NCBI RefSeq assembly: GCF_004342685.1
Contig: NZ_SMBZ01000003.1
Location: 62,001-126,000 of the forward strand
Source of the DNA: Sphingobacterium alimentarium
GTDB taxonomy: Bacteria; Bacteroidota; Bacteroidia; Sphingobacteriales; Sphingobacteriaceae
Reading direction: 5' to 3'
Length of the DNA stretch: 64,000 nt
Shown here one piece after another: positions 37,868-47,263 of this stretch. Position 1 is the stretch's first letter. The number at the start of each line of letters is the position of its first letter. Position numbers and translations under genes: made by a program. The notes beneath the pieces were generated by a model. It did no database searches. It saw nothing but the letters and a program-made list of their open reading frames with translations, and was not told the origin of the DNA.

Positions 37868-37892
37868 AGCCTTCACTTCAGTAGTGAAGGCT
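37868..37892. terminator. Bidirectional intrinsic terminator
   Basis: AGCCTTCAC pairs perfectly with GTGAAGGCT around TTCAGTA, between the sbcC stop and the end of the converging histidine-kinase gene. The stop region of the kinase gene lies within it. Confidence 0.75.
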
Positions 37893-39625
37893 TTACGTTA
37901 TTGTCTGATTCTTGGATCATACGTGGATAACAGGTGATATAGATGGATGTGCCTTCATTTTTATTGGATTCCACGCTGATTTTACCATTTAGATTCTGAA
38001 CCCTAGAATAGATACTCTTTAAACCCAATCCTCCCTTTAGCCTTGCAGTTTCTAGGTTCATTCCATCACCGTTATCTTCTATGCTGAGGGCCACCATTCC
38101 CGATTTATCCGTCTGAATCTGCAGCAATACATGAGTAGCGTTGGCATGCTTTACAATATTGTGAAGTACTTCTTGGATAATACGGTAAAATGTAATTTCA
38201 TCTTCCACCACGATTTGGCTGGGGACCTTAATCAACTGCAAGTCAATTCTAAATTTATCTGTTTGAATCTTTTTGCAATATTGTTTGATGGCTTCCAGTA
38301 AGCCAAATTTTTCGACGATTAATGGTGTCAAGTTATAGACTATACGATTCAGTTCTTGTTTTGTATCGTCTACATAATGTAGGATCCGACTTAGGTGATT
38401 CATCTCGTTTTCCGAAAGAGGAGCTGATTCCTGGAAATCATATAAGGCGATTTTGATAGAAGATAATAATCCTCCAAGACTATCGTGCAGATCCGTGGCT
38501 ATACGATTCCTTTCGCGGTCTTCGATGATTTTGAGCAACTTCATTTCATATATAATACGGCTCTGTTTTTCTTCTTCCAGACTAGCTTCAAGTAGGTCGT
38601 ATTCTTTTTTGGCTAATATTTTATTACGATTTTTGGCTTTGACTAATAAGAATAAAACGACGATGAGTACATCTAGAAAAACAGCTAAGGCTGCAATGAG
38701 CATGTTGTTCTTAGAACGTGTAAGCAGTGCCTTCTCATTGCTGCTTTTAAGTTTTTCAAGTTCGGCCAAATTTTCATTAAACCGCATATTGTAGTTTAGC
38801 TCCTCAATATAAAGTTGTTGATTACCAATCTTTTGTAATTTCAGCTGATCCAATAATCTTTCATATGCCGCGAATGCTTTTTGGTCTTGATCCGTCGCTC
38901 GGTATGCGTCAATCAGATCCAAAAGTACAAACGTAATGTAGGACTCTAAATCCTTCTCGCTGTAATCATCCAATACGTGAATGTAGGCAGCTATTGCTTT
39001 ACCATATTGTCTTGCCTTTGCAAAAATCTTCCTTCGGATGAATTCACTGTACATCATTTCGGAAGAATCTTTGCCCTCGGGAGCAACCTTATAAGCTTCA
39101 TCCAACAACTTTCTTCCTTCTTCAAAATTCCCTTCATAAGCTAATGAGAGTGCCATCAAGCTTTTTATACGCGCGTTATAGGGTATAGGAACTTCATCTC
39201 TCTTGATTTTATCAGCCAATAAAATGTATTTACGCACACTATCAACCTTATTTTGCTTAGCATAAGTCGAGGTAATCAAGGTTTCTGTAATACCATCAAA
39301 ATTGGAGTGCCAATTAAAGTCGTCGGAAATAAATATGCCCTTATAAAGATGCGTTAAAGCCTTATCCAAATCATTTAGTTGGTAATACAAACCTCCTAGC
39401 TTGAAATTGTAATTCCGAATGATAATGGGATTATTGGTTTTGAGAATGATAGGATGAATATCAGCAAAAAGCTTCAGTCGTGTAAAATAGTGCCCTAACT
39501 CGCCTCTTGCATTTGCTAGATTAGTATGCAAGAGTGCTAACTTCTCCAATACCGCTGCCGTACTGCTATTGCCAATATAATCTATGCCCTTTTGCGCTAA
39601 AGCAATGCTTTTATGTATATCCGTA
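37873..39625 (-). pseudogene. C-terminal part of a TPR sensor histidine kinase interrupted by an IS element
   Basis: The fragment carries TPR-like repeats (SAIAL-type, LNDLDKALTHLYKGIF, KALTHLYK and further), a membrane helix (MLIAALAVFLDVLIVVLFLLV), the HisKA_3 phospho-acceptor in RNRIATDLHDSLGGLLSS, and HATPase motifs EVLHNIVKHANA, DNGDGM and GGLGLKSI. A NarL-class kinase. The start is lost to the IS at 39626; the remaining frame could begin at TTG 39549 but would lack the signal peptide. Reading through the element's target duplication gives IHKSIALAQKGIDYIGNS before that point. It converges on sbcC. Confidence 0.9.
39617..39625. repeat. Target-site duplication, left copy (ATATCCGTA)
   Basis: Nine bases ATATCCGTA that recur exactly at 40837-40845 on the other side of the IS element. 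Removing the element and one copy restores the kinase frame. Confidence 0.85.
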
Positions 39626-40728
39626 CTATGTACATGACAAAAATTGTAATAAACTGATGTTTAACTTGTTGAATCCTGACAATAAACATTCTGTGATATA
39701 ATCAAGGCCATATTTGATTATTGACACGGCTTTTCTTTGATGTTTCTTGATTTTAATGGGTCGAATCTGGGTATGAATATATTCTCCAACTTTGTAGCAC
39801 CACAGGCATGCTATCATCGTAAGCATGAACAATTTTTCAAGGCGGTCCAAGTCAGTGACATGGGTATCTTCTATATTGAACCCGCTAGATTTCATAAATT
39901 TGAATAGTGTCTCGATATTCCAGCGCCGCCTATAATATTCCAGTGCCTTCTGTGGTTCATAGAATGATACCAGTATTAAAAATTCAACTTTTCCATCGAT
40001 AACAGTTTTAGTAGCTGATAGCTAACATAATTGACCGTGCATTTCTACAATATGCTGGTAATGTCTGAATTCCCTGCTATTAAGGTTGTTAAACAAGTGA
40101 CATACCGTTATTTCTTTTTGTTTTCTAGCCAAGAACACCTTAAAGTTATTCCGGATCCTGATATGATACTGGATGCTATGTTCATTTAAGAATCTTAACC
40201 ATTTCTCTCCGATAAATTCACGATCAGCTAATATACAGTCGATGGAATCCAGTCCAAACCAATCGATGAAATTCTGGACCAATGTAATTCGTTCCTGTGA
40301 ATTAGAGTTCCCTCGCTTGTCCAGCATCTTAAACATGATTGGAATGGCAACAGACTTATAACTGATACCCAACATGAGTATATTGATGTTTTGCTGTCCA
40401 AATTTCCAGTTTGTCCTATCCATGACTAAAATAACGGGACTGTTGTTTGTAAAAGATTGAATATAAGTGTACTGATAAGTCGCATTGGCAGATCCACTTG
40501 CGCCATGAAGCGCGGGATTCTCCTAAAACAACTGCTGGCAGCGGATGGAGAATCAAATCCTGCAGACAATTTGGAATAGTTTACTGACTTAACTTTGCAT
40601 AGAGCAGTTATAAAAAGACAGACCAGGCGGATGCTGGAAAGATTGAGATCCTTGCTTAGATGGGCTGTAAATACGGTTAATAAATCCGTATATTTATCGC
40701 ACTGACTGGTATTCGTGTTTAAGAGCAT
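39626..40728 (-). pseudogene. IS4-family DDE transposase, frameshifted and with a nonsense codon
   Basis: Three fragments join to one IS4-type transposase. The N-terminal piece (40426-40728) ends FNLLQTTVPLF and stops; a one-base frameshift near 40430 leads to LVMDRTNWKFGQQNINIL with the first catalytic Asp. ILADREFIGEKW holds the second Asp. A TAG at 40022-40024 (after HGQLC) interrupts the frame, which continues to YYRRRWNIETLFKFMKSSG, an exact Y-x2-R-x3-E-x6-K signature with the catalytic Glu. The stop codon lies within the left inverted repeat. The element cannot make a full transposase unless rescued. Confidence 0.88.
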
Positions 40729-40836
40729 TACGTTGGAAATAATACCTTAATATACTGAATATCAGTCTTTTAAACAAATTTATTATGAAATAATCATCTG
40801 ATAATTAGGTGGTTATGTTTTTTGTCATGTACTAAA
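39626..40836 (-). mobile_element. IS4-family insertion sequence, ~1211 bp, decayed
   Basis: Bounded by the nine-base duplication ATATCCGTA. The ends carry imperfect inverted repeats: GTACATGACAAAAA is exact in both, after four terminal bases that mostly differ (CTAT on the left, TTTA on the right, reading inwards). The transposase reading frame fills most of the element on the minus strand. IS4 elements typically leave 9-12 bp duplications, in line with this. It sits inside the histidine-kinase gene. Confidence 0.9.
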
Positions 40837-40845
40837 ATATCCGTA
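40837..40845. repeat. Target-site duplication, right copy (ATATCCGTA)
   Basis: Exact copy of 39617-39625, directly outside the right end of the IS element. Confidence 0.85.
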
Positions 40846-41147
40846 TCAAAAAACGATATAGCATACGTATTCAAAGTGTTGGCGTAGAATATCGTATCCC
40901 GCATATGTTGCGGCTTGTCTAATATATTTTCTTCAATATATTTAACAACAAATGGAGTATTTGTAACGTAATTTTTGTTGAGTAGATCCGTAATATATAC
41001 TCGAACCTTCTGATAGTCTTTCTCCTTAGCTATCAGATTAATCACAGAATCCGAATAGCGTTTCAGATCATCTGACGCTTGATTTCCAAAACAAAACGAT
41101 GTAAGGAAAAGCAAAAACGCTGTTAAAATCGTTTGCTGTAAGTTCAT
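40837..41147 (-). pseudogene. N-terminal part of the IS-interrupted histidine kinase
   Basis: The fragment starts with a signal peptide (MNLQQTILTAFLLFLTSFCFG) and continues with helical repeat-type sequence to YAISFFDTDI, where the IS breaks it. Joined at the duplication to the fragment ending at 39625, the frame passes directly into IHKSIALAQKG without a gap, giving a 684-residue kinase. ATG at 41147 is chosen because it begins the signal; an upstream in-frame ATG lies at 41162. Three bases past the break, the local frame runs on into the IS and stops. Confidence 0.88.
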
Positions 41148-41287: not shown

Positions 41288-42457
41288 CTATTTAGTTAAA
41301 ACAGCGGCTTTCTTAGCCTTATTAATTTTCCATTGCAAAAGTATCACACTGAAAAGAAATGTCACTACAGTAATAATGACCAACCCCCAGATTGGTCCGC
41401 TGACCATGTCTACAGTTCCTTTTTCAACGACAAGCGTTCTGAAAATCTGCAAATAATGAGTTAAAGGTATACATTTCGCTATGGCTACAATCCAATCTGG
41501 CATCTGACTCAATGGCCAGGTAAAACCACTTAATATAAATGATGGAGTAGCAATAACCATTAATATCTCTGTTGCTTTTAATTGGGTTGGAATGGCAATG
41601 CTGACCAATATGCCTATAAAGCCTACTGCGAGAAGAAATAATAACGAGGTTCCCCAGAATGCAAAACCTTCCACATGTAATGGCATACGATAAAGAATGG
41701 AATAGCCATAATACAATGCGTATATTAAAACCGACATAAGCAGAAACGGTATTAGCTTAACGAATAGAAGTTGAAAAACATTCGAGGTCTTAGCTATTAA
41801 TTCATTAAACGTTCCATTCTCAAATTCAGATGCAAAACTCAAGGCTAAGCCAAGCATAATAACCTGTTGCAATACGGTCAATAGAACACCGGGAAGCATA
41901 AAATATAGGTAGTTGCCCGACTTAAAGTTCTGTTTAATTATCGTCGTCTTAAAAGGTTCGTACTGTTGTGCTGCTACATAGGATGGTACGCCTTTCTTTT
42001 CAAGCGATTTGATCTGAATGCCGGCTTTCAATGTGCCCGCACACACGTTCACCGCCATCATGGCATAGTTGGAAGTTACCGTATTTGATGTGTTCACAAA
42101 CATAGTAAGCTCGGTAGGACGATTGTAATTAATGTCCGCAGCGAAGTTTTTGGGAATATTTACTACCACTGTAGCTTCTTTTTTCAAAGCTGTTTCGCGC
42201 GAATTAAAATTATCGTTGAGTACCGAAGCGACATAGATGACCTCATTCTCATTAAACATATCGATCAATTGACGAGAAAGTGGAGTTTGGTCTTCGTCCA
42301 CTACTATAATGGGAATATCGGTTACCGTACCTTTTTTATATACTGAACCAACGAGGATACCATACATAATCGGGGCTCCTAGAAACAAAACCATTAAGAC
42401 TTTATTTTGAAAGAATAACTGAAATTCTCTTTTAATCAGATTCAAAAAGTTTTTCAT
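41288..42457 (-). CDS. ABC-2 type permease of a drug/efflux system
   Basis: The 389-residue protein has the YhhJ/YbhR arrangement: one N-terminal membrane helix (VLMVLFLGAPIMYGILVGSV), a periplasmic domain of ~150 residues (VTDIPIIVVDEDQTPLSRQL), and five C-terminal helices with the typical PSFILSGFTWPLSQMPDWI loop. It would export substrates with an ABC ATPase, but none is encoded in this operon. It is the last gene of the regulator-TolC-HlyD-permease unit, 6 bases after the adaptor gene stop. Confidence 0.88.
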   Translation of the reverse strand: MKNFLNLIKREFQLFFQNKVLMVLFLGAPIMYGILVGSVYKKGTVTDIPIIVVDEDQTPLSRQLIDMFNENEVIYVASVLNDNFNSRETALKKEATVVVNIPKNFAADINYNRPTELTMFVNTSNTVTSNYAMMAVNVCAGTLKAGIQIKSLEKKGVPSYVAAQQYEPFKTTIIKQNFKSGNYLYFMLPGVLLTVLQQVIMLGLALSFASEFENGTFNELIAKTSNVFQLLFVKLIPFLLMSVLIYALYYGYSILYRMPLHVEGFAFWGTSLLFLLAVGFIGILVSIAIPTQLKATEILMVIATPSFILSGFTWPLSQMPDWIVAIAKCIPLTHYLQIFRTLVVEKGTVDMVSGPIWGLVIITVVTFLFSVILLQWKINKAKKAAVLTK

Positions 42458-42463
42458 GACTTA

Positions 42464-43426
42464 TTATTTTGTTTCAACTACGATGAATGTTGCTTTTGTC
42501 AATAAATCTTTAGCCTCAGCTACGTTGACAGGCTTCAAGCGGATTTCAAACATAGTCTCTTGTTGCTCGAAGTCAGGATATGCTGTACTAATATTTGCAT
42601 AAGAGGTAAGTGTTTTGATTGTTTCTACTTTTGCTTGAAGCTGCTTGTTGTCCAAATACGGGAAAGCTAATGTTTTGATCTCTCCTTTTTGGAATTCCTT
42701 GACTTTGCTTTCTGGAATAGTCACCCGGAAGTATGTTTCATCCGCGATATATCCTGAAGCTAGACTATAACCCGCCAATGCCAATTCCCCAACTTTTAGA
42801 TTGATCGTTTCAATAGACATATCTTGTGGTGCGATAATATATTTTTCGTTCGCCGCTACATTTACTTCAGATACCGCGCCTAATGCTCTTTCTTTTTGTC
42901 CCAAAGCCATTTTTTGCTGTTCGATGCGAGCGCCATTTGTGACATCAGCGACTTCAGCCTGTGCGGCTAAATATTGATTTTTTGCGCCTTGATATTTCGC
43001 GTACACTTCGTCATATTTCTGCTGAGAAACTAAAGAATCCTGTAATAGATTACGCATACGGTTTAAAGATTTTTCAGCATATTCGTATTGCTCTTTTAAC
43101 CCGTTTACCTTAGCATGAAGCTGTTTCAATTGTCCATCAGTAGCACCTTTCACCGCCATTTCGTATTGGGCTTGAGCTGATTCCAAAGCTCCTTGTGCTT
43201 GTGCAGCTTTAGCTTCGACCTCGGGCAGTTCTAATATGAGCAAGGTGTCTCCTTTTTTGACGAATTGTCCTTCTTCCACTAAGATTTGTTGGATCTTACC
43301 GGGAATTTTGGTCGTTACGGCTAATTGTTCACGCTCAATTTTTCCCTCTATTTTCTTATTTGGTTTGTCTGAAGAACAACTTTGCAAAAACATTGCAAAG
43401 CCTAGGATGTATGCTATATTTTTCAT
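42464..43426 (-). CDS. HlyD-family periplasmic adaptor lipoprotein
   Basis: A 320-residue membrane-fusion protein. A lipoprotein signal ends MFLQSC with Cys17. The lipoyl/biotinyl halves are TTKIPGKIQQILVEEGQFVK and KYIIAPQDMSIETINLKVG; between them is a coiled-coil hairpin of ~100 residues (QAQGALESAQAQYE and NQYLAAQAEVAD). It links the inner-membrane permease to the TolC channel. It starts 2 bases after the TolC stop and ends 6 bases before the permease start. Confidence 0.9.
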   Translation of the reverse strand: MKNIAYILGFAMFLQSCSSDKPNKKIEGKIEREQLAVTTKIPGKIQQILVEEGQFVKKGDTLLILELPEVEAKAAQAQGALESAQAQYEMAVKGATDGQLKQLHAKVNGLKEQYEYAEKSLNRMRNLLQDSLVSQQKYDEVYAKYQGAKNQYLAAQAEVADVTNGARIEQQKMALGQKERALGAVSEVNVAANEKYIIAPQDMSIETINLKVGELALAGYSLASGYIADETYFRVTIPESKVKEFQKGEIKTLAFPYLDNKQLQAKVETIKTLTSYANISTAYPDFEQQETMFEIRLKPVNVAEAKDLLTKATFIVVETK

Positions 43427-43428
43427 AA

Positions 43429-44817
43429 TTATCTTGTGATGGTTTGATATAAATTTCCGTTTGCTTTCAAAACTTCTGTTGCCGCGGAGCGTTGACTTAA
43501 AATTTGATTATAGTAATTCAATGATTGTTTATAATATTCATTTTCTGCTTCCAATCGCTCGGTAACATCTTGTAGACCTTCTTCAAATTGTCTTGAAGCC
43601 AAGTAAAGATTATTTTGAGCTATTGTCATCTGTTGTTTGTTTACAGAAATTTTCTTTATAGCCAGATCGTAGTCTGATTTCGTTTTACGTTGCAGCAGAC
43701 TTAATTTTTCTTTCGTATCCGCCATTTTATTGTCATTCATCTGCAGATCAATTTTGGCTTTTTCGATAGCAGTTTTATGTGTTTTTCCTTCAAAAATATT
43801 CCATTTCAATCCAACACCAACAGCATAATTGGGCGCCAACTGAAGGTGATTGGCATGTAGAGCTACATTACCTAATTGTGGAATATCTTTAAGGGTTGCA
43901 TTGGAATTAAATGCATTTAAATAGGACACATTCCCAAAAGCAAAGACCATCGGCAGCTTCGCTCCTTTTTCTTTCTTCAATGCATATTCGTAAGCTTTCT
44001 GAGAAGCTTCCAAAGCCAATAACTCTTTGCGATTCATTTCTGTAGCCGCATCCGTAAGCATAAGTTCTTCCAAAGGATACGACACTTGTTTTAATTCCTC
44101 CAAAGAAAGACCAGTTAACTCTTGCAATTTATAATACAATAGTTCGCGATTGCTTTGTACTTCCGCTTGTTTGCTGCTGAGTTCGAGCATCGCTAATTTT
44201 ATTTTGTCTCTGTCATAAGGAATCGCAACACCATTTTCAATCGCTTTCACGACTTTCAAATGTTCTTTGTTCAGTCTTTTTTCGGAGTCACTGATAAGTA
44301 TATCCACTTCCTTGAGTAGCATAAGCTGATCAAAGGATGTGATAATTTCCTGCGCTATCTGATCATAGCTCGCTTCGGTCAGTAAATGTTGTGCTATATG
44401 TTTTTGCTCTAATGCTTTTTGTCCATTGGTAATCTGCAATCCGCTAAATAGAACTTGTGTAGCTGTAACGCCTGTCGCAAATAATTGCGATGAAGCATTC
44501 GCTTTGGTAGTTCCTTCGAATAAATTAATTCCTGGAATGGGCAACGACTGCGTAGGTAGGTCAATATCTAAATCCGAATGAACATAGCCATAAAGCCCAT
44601 TCAAAGAAACTTTCGGCAACAATTTACCTTTTACATCTTCTCGGTCGAGCGCCACTTTATCGCTTTCCAAATAGGCATTCTTGATAGCTTTATTGTTTTT
44701 GATGGCAGCTTCTACAGGTGGAGTAAATTGCTTTAGCTGTTCTTGCCCATCAACTGTGCCTACAAAAAACACATTGGAAAAGATCAATGAAGCACATATT
44801 AGATAATACTTTTTCAT
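43429..44817 (-). CDS. TolC-family outer membrane efflux protein
   Basis: After a signal peptide (YLICASLIFSNVFFVGTVDG) come two repeated OEP domains with long helices, e.g. EAAIKNNKAIKNAYLESDKV and QYN-type stretches, and the closing LYLASRQFEEGLQDVTERLEA. The ~460-residue size is right for TolC. It forms the outer-membrane channel of the adaptor/permease pump encoded next. I chose the ATG at 44817, which precedes the signal peptide; an in-frame leader up to 44859 has no role. Its partner regulator gene lies 81 bases upstream. Confidence 0.9.
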   Translation of the reverse strand: MKKYYLICASLIFSNVFFVGTVDGQEQLKQFTPPVEAAIKNNKAIKNAYLESDKVALDREDVKGKLLPKVSLNGLYGYVHSDLDIDLPTQSLPIPGINLFEGTTKANASSQLFATGVTATQVLFSGLQITNGQKALEQKHIAQHLLTEASYDQIAQEIITSFDQLMLLKEVDILISDSEKRLNKEHLKVVKAIENGVAIPYDRDKIKLAMLELSSKQAEVQSNRELLYYKLQELTGLSLEELKQVSYPLEELMLTDAATEMNRKELLALEASQKAYEYALKKEKGAKLPMVFAFGNVSYLNAFNSNATLKDIPQLGNVALHANHLQLAPNYAVGVGLKWNIFEGKTHKTAIEKAKIDLQMNDNKMADTKEKLSLLQRKTKSDYDLAIKKISVNKQQMTIAQNNLYLASRQFEEGLQDVTERLEAENEYYKQSLNYYNQILSQRSAATEVLKANGNLYQTITR

Positions 44818-44898
44818 ATTGTTATTAATTATCTGCATAAAAATACAAAGATGGAGCAAGATCCAACGATATCTTTTCAGATATCTTAAAAAACGAAA

Positions 44899-45459
44899 TT
44901 ATTTCATGCCTCTAATCACGGATAGCGTTTGCTGTGATACCCCGAGAAATGACGCAATGTGTCCCAAAGAAGCATTTTGTAGTAGTGTCGGGTTTTCTTT
45001 TAGCAAGGATTCGTACCTTTCGTGGGCAGTTTCAAATTGGCTATTGTAGAATCTTTTGGAAAAATCAATGAGATTGTCCAGGAGAATCTTTTCGATGATA
45101 TGGTTCATCGTGATGCTCTGCTTGGAGAGTTCGCGGATTGGCCCAAAAGGTAACAACGTAATCCGAGATGGCGCTAAGGCCTGAAAACCAAATAGACTCG
45201 GCTTTTGGTAAAACACACTTTCTATTCCTGTACTGAAGCTATTTTCACCGAAAAAATAATGAGTGATATCTTTTCGATTCTTATAGTAATACACTCGTGT
45301 AAAGCCTGATTCTATAAAGTATATATGTTTTAAATAACTATTGGGCTCAAAAATCAAATCTCCTTTTGCATATTCTCTGGTTTCGCTTATTGATTCAAAG
45401 AATAATTCCAGCTCATCATCTACATGGTATAAAGTTTTGAAATGCTCAATTAAAGTCAT
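44899..45459 (-). CDS. Crp/Fnr-family transcriptional regulator
   Basis: The 186-residue protein has a cyclic-nucleotide-binding-type beta-roll (EYAKGDLIFEPNSYLKHIYFI, FSTGIESVFYQKPS) and a C-terminal helix-turn-helix in SLGHIASFLGVSQQTLSVIR. The phosphate-cassette Arg-Ala pair is replaced by QALAPSRI, so it probably does not bind cAMP, as in many Bacteroidota relatives. It heads the TolC-HlyD-permease operon and probably controls it. A TATATTTG box ends 4 bases before the ATG, predicting a leaderless start. Confidence 0.88.
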   Translation of the reverse strand: MTLIEHFKTLYHVDDELELFFESISETREYAKGDLIFEPNSYLKHIYFIESGFTRVYYYKNRKDITHYFFGENSFSTGIESVFYQKPSLFGFQALAPSRITLLPFGPIRELSKQSITMNHIIEKILLDNLIDFSKRFYNSQFETAHERYESLLKENPTLLQNASLGHIASFLGVSQQTLSVIRGMK

Positions 45460-45530: not shown

Positions 45531-46481
45531 ATGAGAAAGTCTGTTGTAGGATGCTTTATCACGATAAGTTTGTTGGGAGCTTGTGCTCCTATAAAAGACG
45601 CTACGTTGCACAATCAGATTATAGCCAGCAAATGCAACCAACAAAATCAATATCGCTATACCGTAGCTGACCTTCCTACTGCGCTCGACGATATAGCAGT
45701 AGACACCGCACTACGCCACAAACTATCTGCCGGAAGTCTGCATATTGCCAATACCATTGGGATTATTAATTATCTAAATGAATACAGTGCACTGCTCAAC
45801 AAGCAGACCACTCCCCTTACTATGGATAAGCGCATGCGTATTCTCGAGCTCGAGCAAGCCATAGATCATCAGATAAATAATGCTTCACTCGTCATCTCCG
45901 CAGTCTCTTCGGAGCTCGACTGTGAGGAAGAGCGTATCAGTCAGATTGCACATTATCTGACCGAAAAGCAAGGCAGTCTAGAATCCAAATTGACGATTGG
46001 GGCTATTGTCCTAGGTGCATCTGGCGCGATATTGACCGGAGGTGTCATCAAGAATGATAAAGCGAGCAATGCTGTGGGTATTAGCACAGGTATTGGAGAA
46101 GCAGGACTCGGATTGGCCATGCTATTCAATAAGCGTAAAATAGAGTTTTACCATCAGCGCAATATCCTACGGGATATATACGAAGGTCCAGCTGTGTCTT
46201 CGCTATTCCCTTCCTTTATTTGGTATTATCTCAATTATGAAGACAAAAATCAACCTGCATTGCGCAAAGATATTATAGATAAATGGTCCCAATTTGGTCA
46301 GATTGACCAGGATGCTTTGCATATATCTTCGCTGTACTTTGGCGACGGAGGTGTCTATATAGCAGATGAATTGAACAACCGTGCAGATATGTATGATCAG
46401 CTTGAATCGCAGATTTATTTGCTAAAGCAAAAATTAATGACCTTAGCAGCAGAAATTGATAGTTTAAAATCGTTAAATTAG
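45531..46481 (+). CDS. Hypothetical lipoprotein with glycine-rich hydrophobic segments, 316 aa
   Basis: A lipoprotein signal ends SLLGAC (Cys18). The mature part is mostly helical; residues 155-205 hold two glycine-rich hydrophobic stretches, TIGAIVLGASGAILTGGVIK and GISTGIGEAGLGLAMLF, that could enter a membrane or pack as a glycine zipper. The C-terminal third is a charged helical region ending in LESQIYLLKQKLMTLAAEID, a predicted coiled coil. I do not recognise a family. It precedes the GIN-domain gene by 26 bases on the same strand. Confidence 0.75.
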   Translation: MRKSVVGCFITISLLGACAPIKDATLHNQIIASKCNQQNQYRYTVADLPTALDDIAVDTALRHKLSAGSLHIANTIGIINYLNEYSALLNKQTTPLTMDKRMRILELEQAIDHQINNASLVISAVSSELDCEEERISQIAHYLTEKQGSLESKLTIGAIVLGASGAILTGGVIKNDKASNAVGISTGIGEAGLGLAMLFNKRKIEFYHQRNILRDIYEGPAVSSLFPSFIWYYLNYEDKNQPALRKDIIDKWSQFGQIDQDALHISSLYFGDGGVYIADELNNRADMYDQLESQIYLLKQKLMTLAAEIDSLKSLN

Positions 46482-46507: not shown

Positions 46508-47263
46508 ATGAAAAATTTAATTGCCTTATTATTCATAGCTTCTTATATATTTCCAATTTATGGACAGCATAAGGAAGTTAGAAAACTTAGTGCACATCAA
46601 AGCATCTCTGTCGCCACGAGTCTGGATGTGCTGTATGTTCCTTCGGATCGGAATGAAATCGTTCTTGATTGTGCCAACCGAGATCACCTTCAGCTAATCC
46701 TGACGGATGTCAAAAATGGTAACTTGCAGATCCAATACAAACCCAATTCATCGGTCAAATCATCGAAGCAAAATAAAGTCATCGTTTATTCCAATTACAA
46801 AATACATACGGTAAAAGTTTCGTCGAGTAGCAAACTTAGGCTAGAGTCTGCGGTCAACGCCAATACCGTTAATATTACGACTAACTCATCCGGAAAATTC
46901 TACGCCGATAGAATCAAAGCCAATACCATCAACTTGGATCTATCTTCGTCCGGACAGCTGGAAGCTGCTATAGTAACCGAAACCCTGAACCTCACAGCGA
47001 GTAGCTCAGGCAAAGGATTTTTAAAGGGCGAAGCGGTATCAGCCAATGTAAACATGAGTTCATCGGCTAAGTTGGATTTGGATAATGTGACTATAAGTAA
47101 CCTGTTTTGTGATGGTAGCTCATCAGCACGATTGCAGATTAATACAGCGAAAACACTAAAAAGCAAATTATCTTCTTCTGCTACCCTGGCTTACAGCAAA
47201 GAACCGGCAAAGATTGTGGAGAACAAAACTTCATCCAGCGGACGACTCCTAAAGAAATCATAA
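46508..47263 (+). CDS. GIN-domain (DUF2807) surface protein
   Basis: A signal peptide (LIALLFIASYIFPIYGQ) precedes a right-handed parallel beta-helix-type domain: rows of Ser/Asn-rich rungs such as VKVSSSSKLRLES, INLDLSSSGQLEA, LNLTASSSGKGF and NMSSSAKLDL. This is the 'head GIN' DUF2807 pattern common in Bacteroidota. The function is unknown; it is exported and may act at the surface. It follows the lipoprotein gene by 26 bases and ends in an intrinsic terminator. Confidence 0.85.
   Translation: MKNLIALLFIASYIFPIYGQHKEVRKLSAHQSISVATSLDVLYVPSDRNEIVLDCANRDHLQLILTDVKNGNLQIQYKPNSSVKSSKQNKVIVYSNYKIHTVKVSSSSKLRLESAVNANTVNITTNSSGKFYADRIKANTINLDLSSSGQLEAAIVTETLNLTASSSGKGFLKGEAVSANVNMSSSAKLDLDNVTISNLFCDGSSSARLQINTAKTLKSKLSSSATLAYSKEPAKIVENKTSSSGRLLKKS

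Follow-up and report, generated by a model that had tools for sequence, protein, structure and literature searches.

The window considered here (the whole stretch of Sphingobacterium alimentarium DNA that was analysed, 64 kb long) carries, on its minus strand, a sensor histidine kinase gene in two pieces with an insertion sequence lodged between them, and an efflux pump operon directly upstream. Genomes are designated G000 (the window genome), G068 (S. composti KCTC 12578), G002 (S. litopenaei DN04309), G065 (S. bovistauri WQ 366) or, for the rest, by label alone. In window coordinates, the features are as follows:

37873..39625, minus strand: kinase 3’ fragment with TPR, transmembrane segment, HisKA_3 and HATPase_c (ORFs, join, domain matches)
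39617..39625, no strand: target-site duplication, copy 1, ATATCCGTA (string match)
39626..40836, minus strand: IS4-family insertion sequence, 1211 bp, with imperfect terminal inverted repeats and transposase sense on the minus strand
39626..39895, minus strand: transposase fragment 3, C-terminal (NF033591, 2.4e-15)
40022..40423, minus strand: transposase fragment 2, DDE core (NF033591, 3.4e-28), with a TAG end common to the other genomic copy
40426..40728, minus strand: N-terminal piece of the transposase (fragment 1), put out of frame by a 1-nt deletion found in the window copy alone
40837..40845, no strand: target-site duplication, copy 2, ATATCCGTA (string match)
40837..41147, minus strand: kinase 5’ fragment with a signal-peptide-like start, first ~104 codons (ORFs, join)
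41288..42457, minus strand: ABC-2 permease, immediately upstream of the kinase (domain match, conserved neighbour)
42464..43426, minus strand: HlyD-type membrane-fusion protein of the pump operon (domain match, conserved neighbour)
43429..44859, minus strand: TolC-type outer membrane efflux protein of the pump operon (domain match, conserved neighbour)
44899..45459, minus strand: Crp-type (cNMP-binding) regulator heading the pump operon (domain match, conserved neighbour)

When the element and one copy of the repeat are excised by script, the flanks join in frame into a gene of 2055 nt, i.e. 685 codons with one terminal stop, exactly as the initial annotation had proposed. The resulting protein has 684 residues, and SFFDTDI runs directly into HKSIALAQKG. 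Its parts follow in the order signal-peptide-like start, TPR region, transmembrane segment, HisKA_3 and HATPase_c; the signal peptide and membrane segment were read by eye from the sequence, while the remainder is given by domain matches (HATPase_c, 8.4e-13; HisKA_3, 4.6e-8; TPR). HisKA_3 with its phospho-histidine is followed by HATPase_c (PF07730 at 33.9 bits against a cut-off of 24, PF02518 at 49.2 bits), the protein carries an ATDLHDSLGG motif, and the closest solved structures are the catalytic parts of DesK, YocF and VraS. This architecture is that of the TPR-containing HisKA_3 (NarL/DesK-like) kinases of Bacteroidota, which likewise combine a signal-peptide-like start, TPR, one transmembrane segment, HisKA_3 and HATPase_c. 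In contrast to those kinases, however, the window gene is interrupted and, in the six-species clade described below, the likely regulator is encoded at a distance from the kinase gene, which in five of these species is (or was) next to the efflux operon. The broken gene is the sole HisKA_3 match in the window genome. As it now stands, the 3’ fragment contains a 558-aa ORF starting at a TTG at 39549, with the frame remaining open further, into the element end, and the frame of the 5’ fragment enters the element and terminates after DILVHDKKHNHLIIR.

The element itself is delimited precisely. ATATCCGTA occurs exactly twice on the plus strand of the whole 64-kb window, abutting both element ends, and the borders, length and repeat of what had been described as a 1211-base element between identical 9-bp repeats are all exact. 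The outermost 19 bp form imperfect inverted repeats, identical at 15 of 19 positions (TTTAGTACATGACAAAAA / CTATGTACATGACAAAAA). The transposase is broken into ORFs of 100, 133 and 89 aa, fragments of which match the IS4-family model NF033591. Members of the IS4 family by definition duplicate 7-13 bp of target, roughly one turn of the helix (De Palmenaer et al. 2008, PMC2266710), and 9-bp duplications are found at both copies of the element in the window genome as well as at copies in G036 and G090. The intact relative of G090, an element ~67% identical to that of the window, shows the D(60-110)D(100-150)E arrangement in the form D(64)D(103)E, and this arrangement is broken in the window copy; similarly, Y(2)R(3)E(6)K reads YKERWQVETLFKGMK in the G090 relative, and the corresponding window fragment has YYRRRWNIETLFKFMKSS. 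Single-ORF relatives are present in G064 and G090, and full-length relatives of 94-96% identity in G036 and G064. The DDE transposase, the YREK motif of the intact relative, the size of ~1.2 kb, the 9-bp duplication and the imperfect terminal inverted repeats are all features shared with the IS4 family, although the element ends (TTTAG.../CTATG...) fit no single published IS4 subgroup clearly and the two copies in the window genome, frameshifted and with a common stop, depart from the family in having a dead transposase in place of a single ORF. They are decayed copies of an IS4 family member.

The second of these copies lies at G000:C16:40143-41353 (L023:5144-6354), is 98% identical to the first and has the same ends. 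It is flanked on both sides by its own 9-bp duplication, AAAAGACTA; since two copies carry different 9-bp duplications, the length of the duplication is set by the element and is no coincidence. The genome holds these two copies in all, differing at 20 positions. Both are dead: each transposase has a private 1-nt deletion, and a TAC-to-TAG stop is common to the two and absent from the other copies compared. The common stop indicates that the element probably arrived dead and, judging from these sequences, a dead parent copy was probably mobilised in trans by an intact copy now gone from the assembly. No intact copy was found in the G000 assembly, and the insertion is therefore probably stable now. 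The C16 copy sits at the stop codon of a putative M61-type peptidase gene (named from sequence), the frame of which now continues into the element, so that the C-terminus is altered by a short added tail (KDYLVHDKKYNHLIIR).

The insertion, its duplication and the joined frame can be read directly off the DNA, and it is close to certain that an intact kinase gene was split. We propose that an IS4-family element, already transposase-dead and dependent on an intact copy acting in trans, would have transposed into codon ~104 of a gene for a membrane-bound TPR/HisKA_3 kinase, duplicating 9 bp of target and leaving the predicted signal peptide on one side of the element and the TPR sensor and catalytic domains on the other. 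The kinase is likely to be null in the window genome. An IS insertion as such is ordinary, and so is a single IS-broken gene; set beside its relatives, the locus becomes a small natural experiment on one sensor kinase.

The kinase lineage was sought in 94 Sphingobacterium genomes, one per species, and is carried by nine. A tree of SbcC places G000, G002, G036, G064, G065 and G068 in a six-species clade with 100/100 support, and the Crp-TolC-HlyD-ABC2 operon is syntenic across the window, S. composti, S. litopenaei, G036 and G064. The 5’ fragment is ~53-57% identical to the N-termini found in these same four relatives. Intact orthologues are directly observed. S. composti has an uninterrupted 681-aa kinase at the syntenic site downstream of the operon (L056:8683-10728), and S. 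bovistauri has an intact 675-aa one elsewhere, between other genes (L057:9315-11342); the pump permease had no match in the S. bovistauri genome at the cut-off used. G012 and, as a distant orthologue, G099 have intact kinases of 679 and 667 aa, respectively. Thus, the uninterrupted kinase of ~684 residues, proposed as a check on sister strains in support of an IS having disrupted one kinase gene, is borne out at the level of species, and the opposite arrangement, in which each fragment is a gene of its own and the element is lacking, was looked for in the relatives and not found. The suggestion that close relatives keep the pathway holds only by half: the kinase is intact in S. composti and S. 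bovistauri, but other lesions have removed it from three of the five closest species.

In total, the kinase is broken in five of the nine genomes of the lineage, each time by a different lesion, the IS4 element being that of the window. At the same locus, the S. litopenaei gene is shifted out of frame near residue 197 and also contains an in-frame TAG, and G036 has an IS1380 transposase (NF033539, 6.3e-72) near residue 185, bounded by a TTTAA repeat, plus frameshifts. In G064, just the N-terminal ~121 codons are left, followed by unrelated sequence and the contig end, and a search of that genome did not find the rest of the kinase. The unrelated sequence at the end of G064:C204 (L119:8960-9018) is perhaps the end of another mobile element. 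In G113, which was put outside the six-species clade by weak kinase similarity and is absent from the SbcC tree, the frame is disturbed and breaks off near residue 387; the catalytic half was sought in the genome and not found. The frameshifts of the relatives are taken from draft genomes. No lesion common to the broken orthologues was seen; G036 and G064 are sisters, however, and the G064 deletion could hide a lesion in common with G036. If the two are allowed to be a single event, the losses that look independent still number at least four. A programmed frameshift was considered for S. litopenaei and G036, where both kinases break at residues ~197-218, and was rejected: the breaks fall at different residues (197 and 218), intact orthologues are unshifted there, and other lesions are present.

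As controls, the ABC-2 permease showed no internal stop among the matches listed (74 genomes of the genus) and SbcC none in 22 matches. Inactivation of the same kinase, repeatedly and by different lesions, indicates that constraint on it appears to be intermittent across Sphingobacterium, relaxed to the point that the input of the pathway is often discarded; the kinase appears to be a gene that these bacteria repeatedly do without. Synonymous sites are saturated in nearly all between-species pairs, and the N-terminal dN/dS for G036 against G064 is 0.31 over 106 codons, or 0.70 over 116 codons when codons next to frameshifts are counted in, samples too small to separate with confidence from the 0.25 of SbcC. 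In the kinase tree, the G000 tip measures 0.55, compared to 0.27 in the SbcC tree, with forks around this tip that are poorly supported.

Recurrent loss of regulators, IS-mediated or by frameshift, occurs during bacterial adaptation. Our case resembles it in that one regulatory gene has been broken independently in several lineages, but differs in that the losses are at species level, in a little-studied genus, and known from sequence alone; a literature search for IS-disrupted kinases in Sphingobacterium returned nothing relevant. One alternative is that the repeated losses are themselves adaptive, the pathway being switched off in certain niches by selection and not by relaxed constraint. 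At least four lesion types in nine genomes, set against controls free of internal stops among their listed matches, would agree with this. However, an accessory gene lost without benefit would give an identical pattern, and the dN/dS values of the G036/G064 pair do not set the kinase apart from SbcC. The present data fit weak constraint and selection alike; we regard selection for loss as unlikely, and favour intermittent constraint tentatively.

What is the kinase likely to signal to? The initial annotation described it as an orphan lacking an adjacent response regulator, which is true of adjacency at this locus, but a likely partner is encoded elsewhere in the genome. A divergent receiver-domain regulator adjoins the distant kinase orthologue in G099 and likewise the kinase in G012 and G113. 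Its orthologue in the window genome is intact and lies on another contig, at G000:C10:51103-51693 (L174:6082-6693). Further orthologues were found in G002, G064, G065, G068, G012 and G113, and one was sought in G036 and is absent. Overall, the regulator is present in eight of the nine genomes of the kinase lineage and in none of the 85 others (E<=1e-35; Fisher p about 8e-11, kinship ignored). The regulator matches PF00072 and keeps the phospho-acceptor aspartate, in an LDINLPD stretch, in all seven aligned sequences, that of G000 among them. For the GerE-type HTH expected of a NarL/LuxR-type response regulator, the GerE model fails, though LTKRE is kept in the C-terminal domain, and the output domain looks diverged on this evidence. 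Judging by gene context and co-occurrence, this receiver-domain protein is likely to be the two-component partner of the kinase, which thereby gains a candidate in place of its orphan status. Other LuxR-type regulators were considered for this role and set aside: two receiver-GerE proteins seem common to most of the six species and have no adjacency to the kinase.

In our proposed scheme, then, the kinase would be one half of a two-component pair, the regulator of which is still intact in the window genome, and inactivation of the kinase across Sphingobacterium would in some species have taken the regulator with it. At least four different lesions account for loss of the kinase, and the likely regulator is still intact in three of the species concerned. 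In G113:C256 (L062:6500-8450), the regulator is frameshifted after about residue 22 beside a kinase the catalytic half of which is missing; with the absence of the regulator from G036, this indicates that some kinase losses were accompanied by regulator loss. Since the broken gene is the only HisKA_3 match in the window genome, its likely regulator is left without an obvious substitute kinase of that type. A bolder formulation, which we consider rather improbable, is that this TPR-kinase/diverged-output-regulator pathway is being dismantled in parallel across the genus, with the kinase always lost and the regulator sometimes, because certain niches would favour a regulator without its kinase.

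The intact regulator could also be read as a sign that signalling persists. The 3’ fragment might still be expressed, from an internal start or an element promoter, as a truncated kinase without its signal peptide and first TPRs, in which case signalling would be unregulated and not lost. The 583-codon 3’ frame is fully open, and the TPR, transmembrane, HisKA_3 and HATPase parts all lie on it. However, simulation makes the open frame uninformative as an argument for kept function, a chance open frame being expected in roughly 10-50% of cases with the nine private changes of the window element copy as a rough clock. Moreover, promoter-like matches in the region number 14, equal to the shuffled expectation of 14.9, a Bacteroidota-type promoter was looked for near the downstream end of the element and not found, and other species lose the catalytic half entirely. 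Expression of a truncated kinase is thus distinctly improbable, and loss of the kinase remains the preferred reading. The weakest alternative, in which an intact gene merely seems split through collapse or misplacement of an IS copy in the assembly, has next to no probability and is mostly refuted: although the draft assembly has 107 contigs and IS copies are common trouble spots, the element lies inside a 132-kb contig, and the 20 differences and distinct exact 9-bp duplications of the two genomic copies speak against it.

We hold the explanation as a whole, i.e. IS4 disruption, movement in trans, a two-component pair and intermittent constraint, to be very likely. An IS-broken gene is a known phenomenon; what goes beyond the first reading is the repeated loss of the kinase, in lesions that can be seen directly to differ between relatives, and the candidate partner. 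Finally, the surroundings of the pump operon also vary between the sister species. Beside the operon in G036 (L060:13600-15900, C88), no match was seen to window 45531-46481 or to the first part of 46508-47263, and genes matching both are kept in G064.
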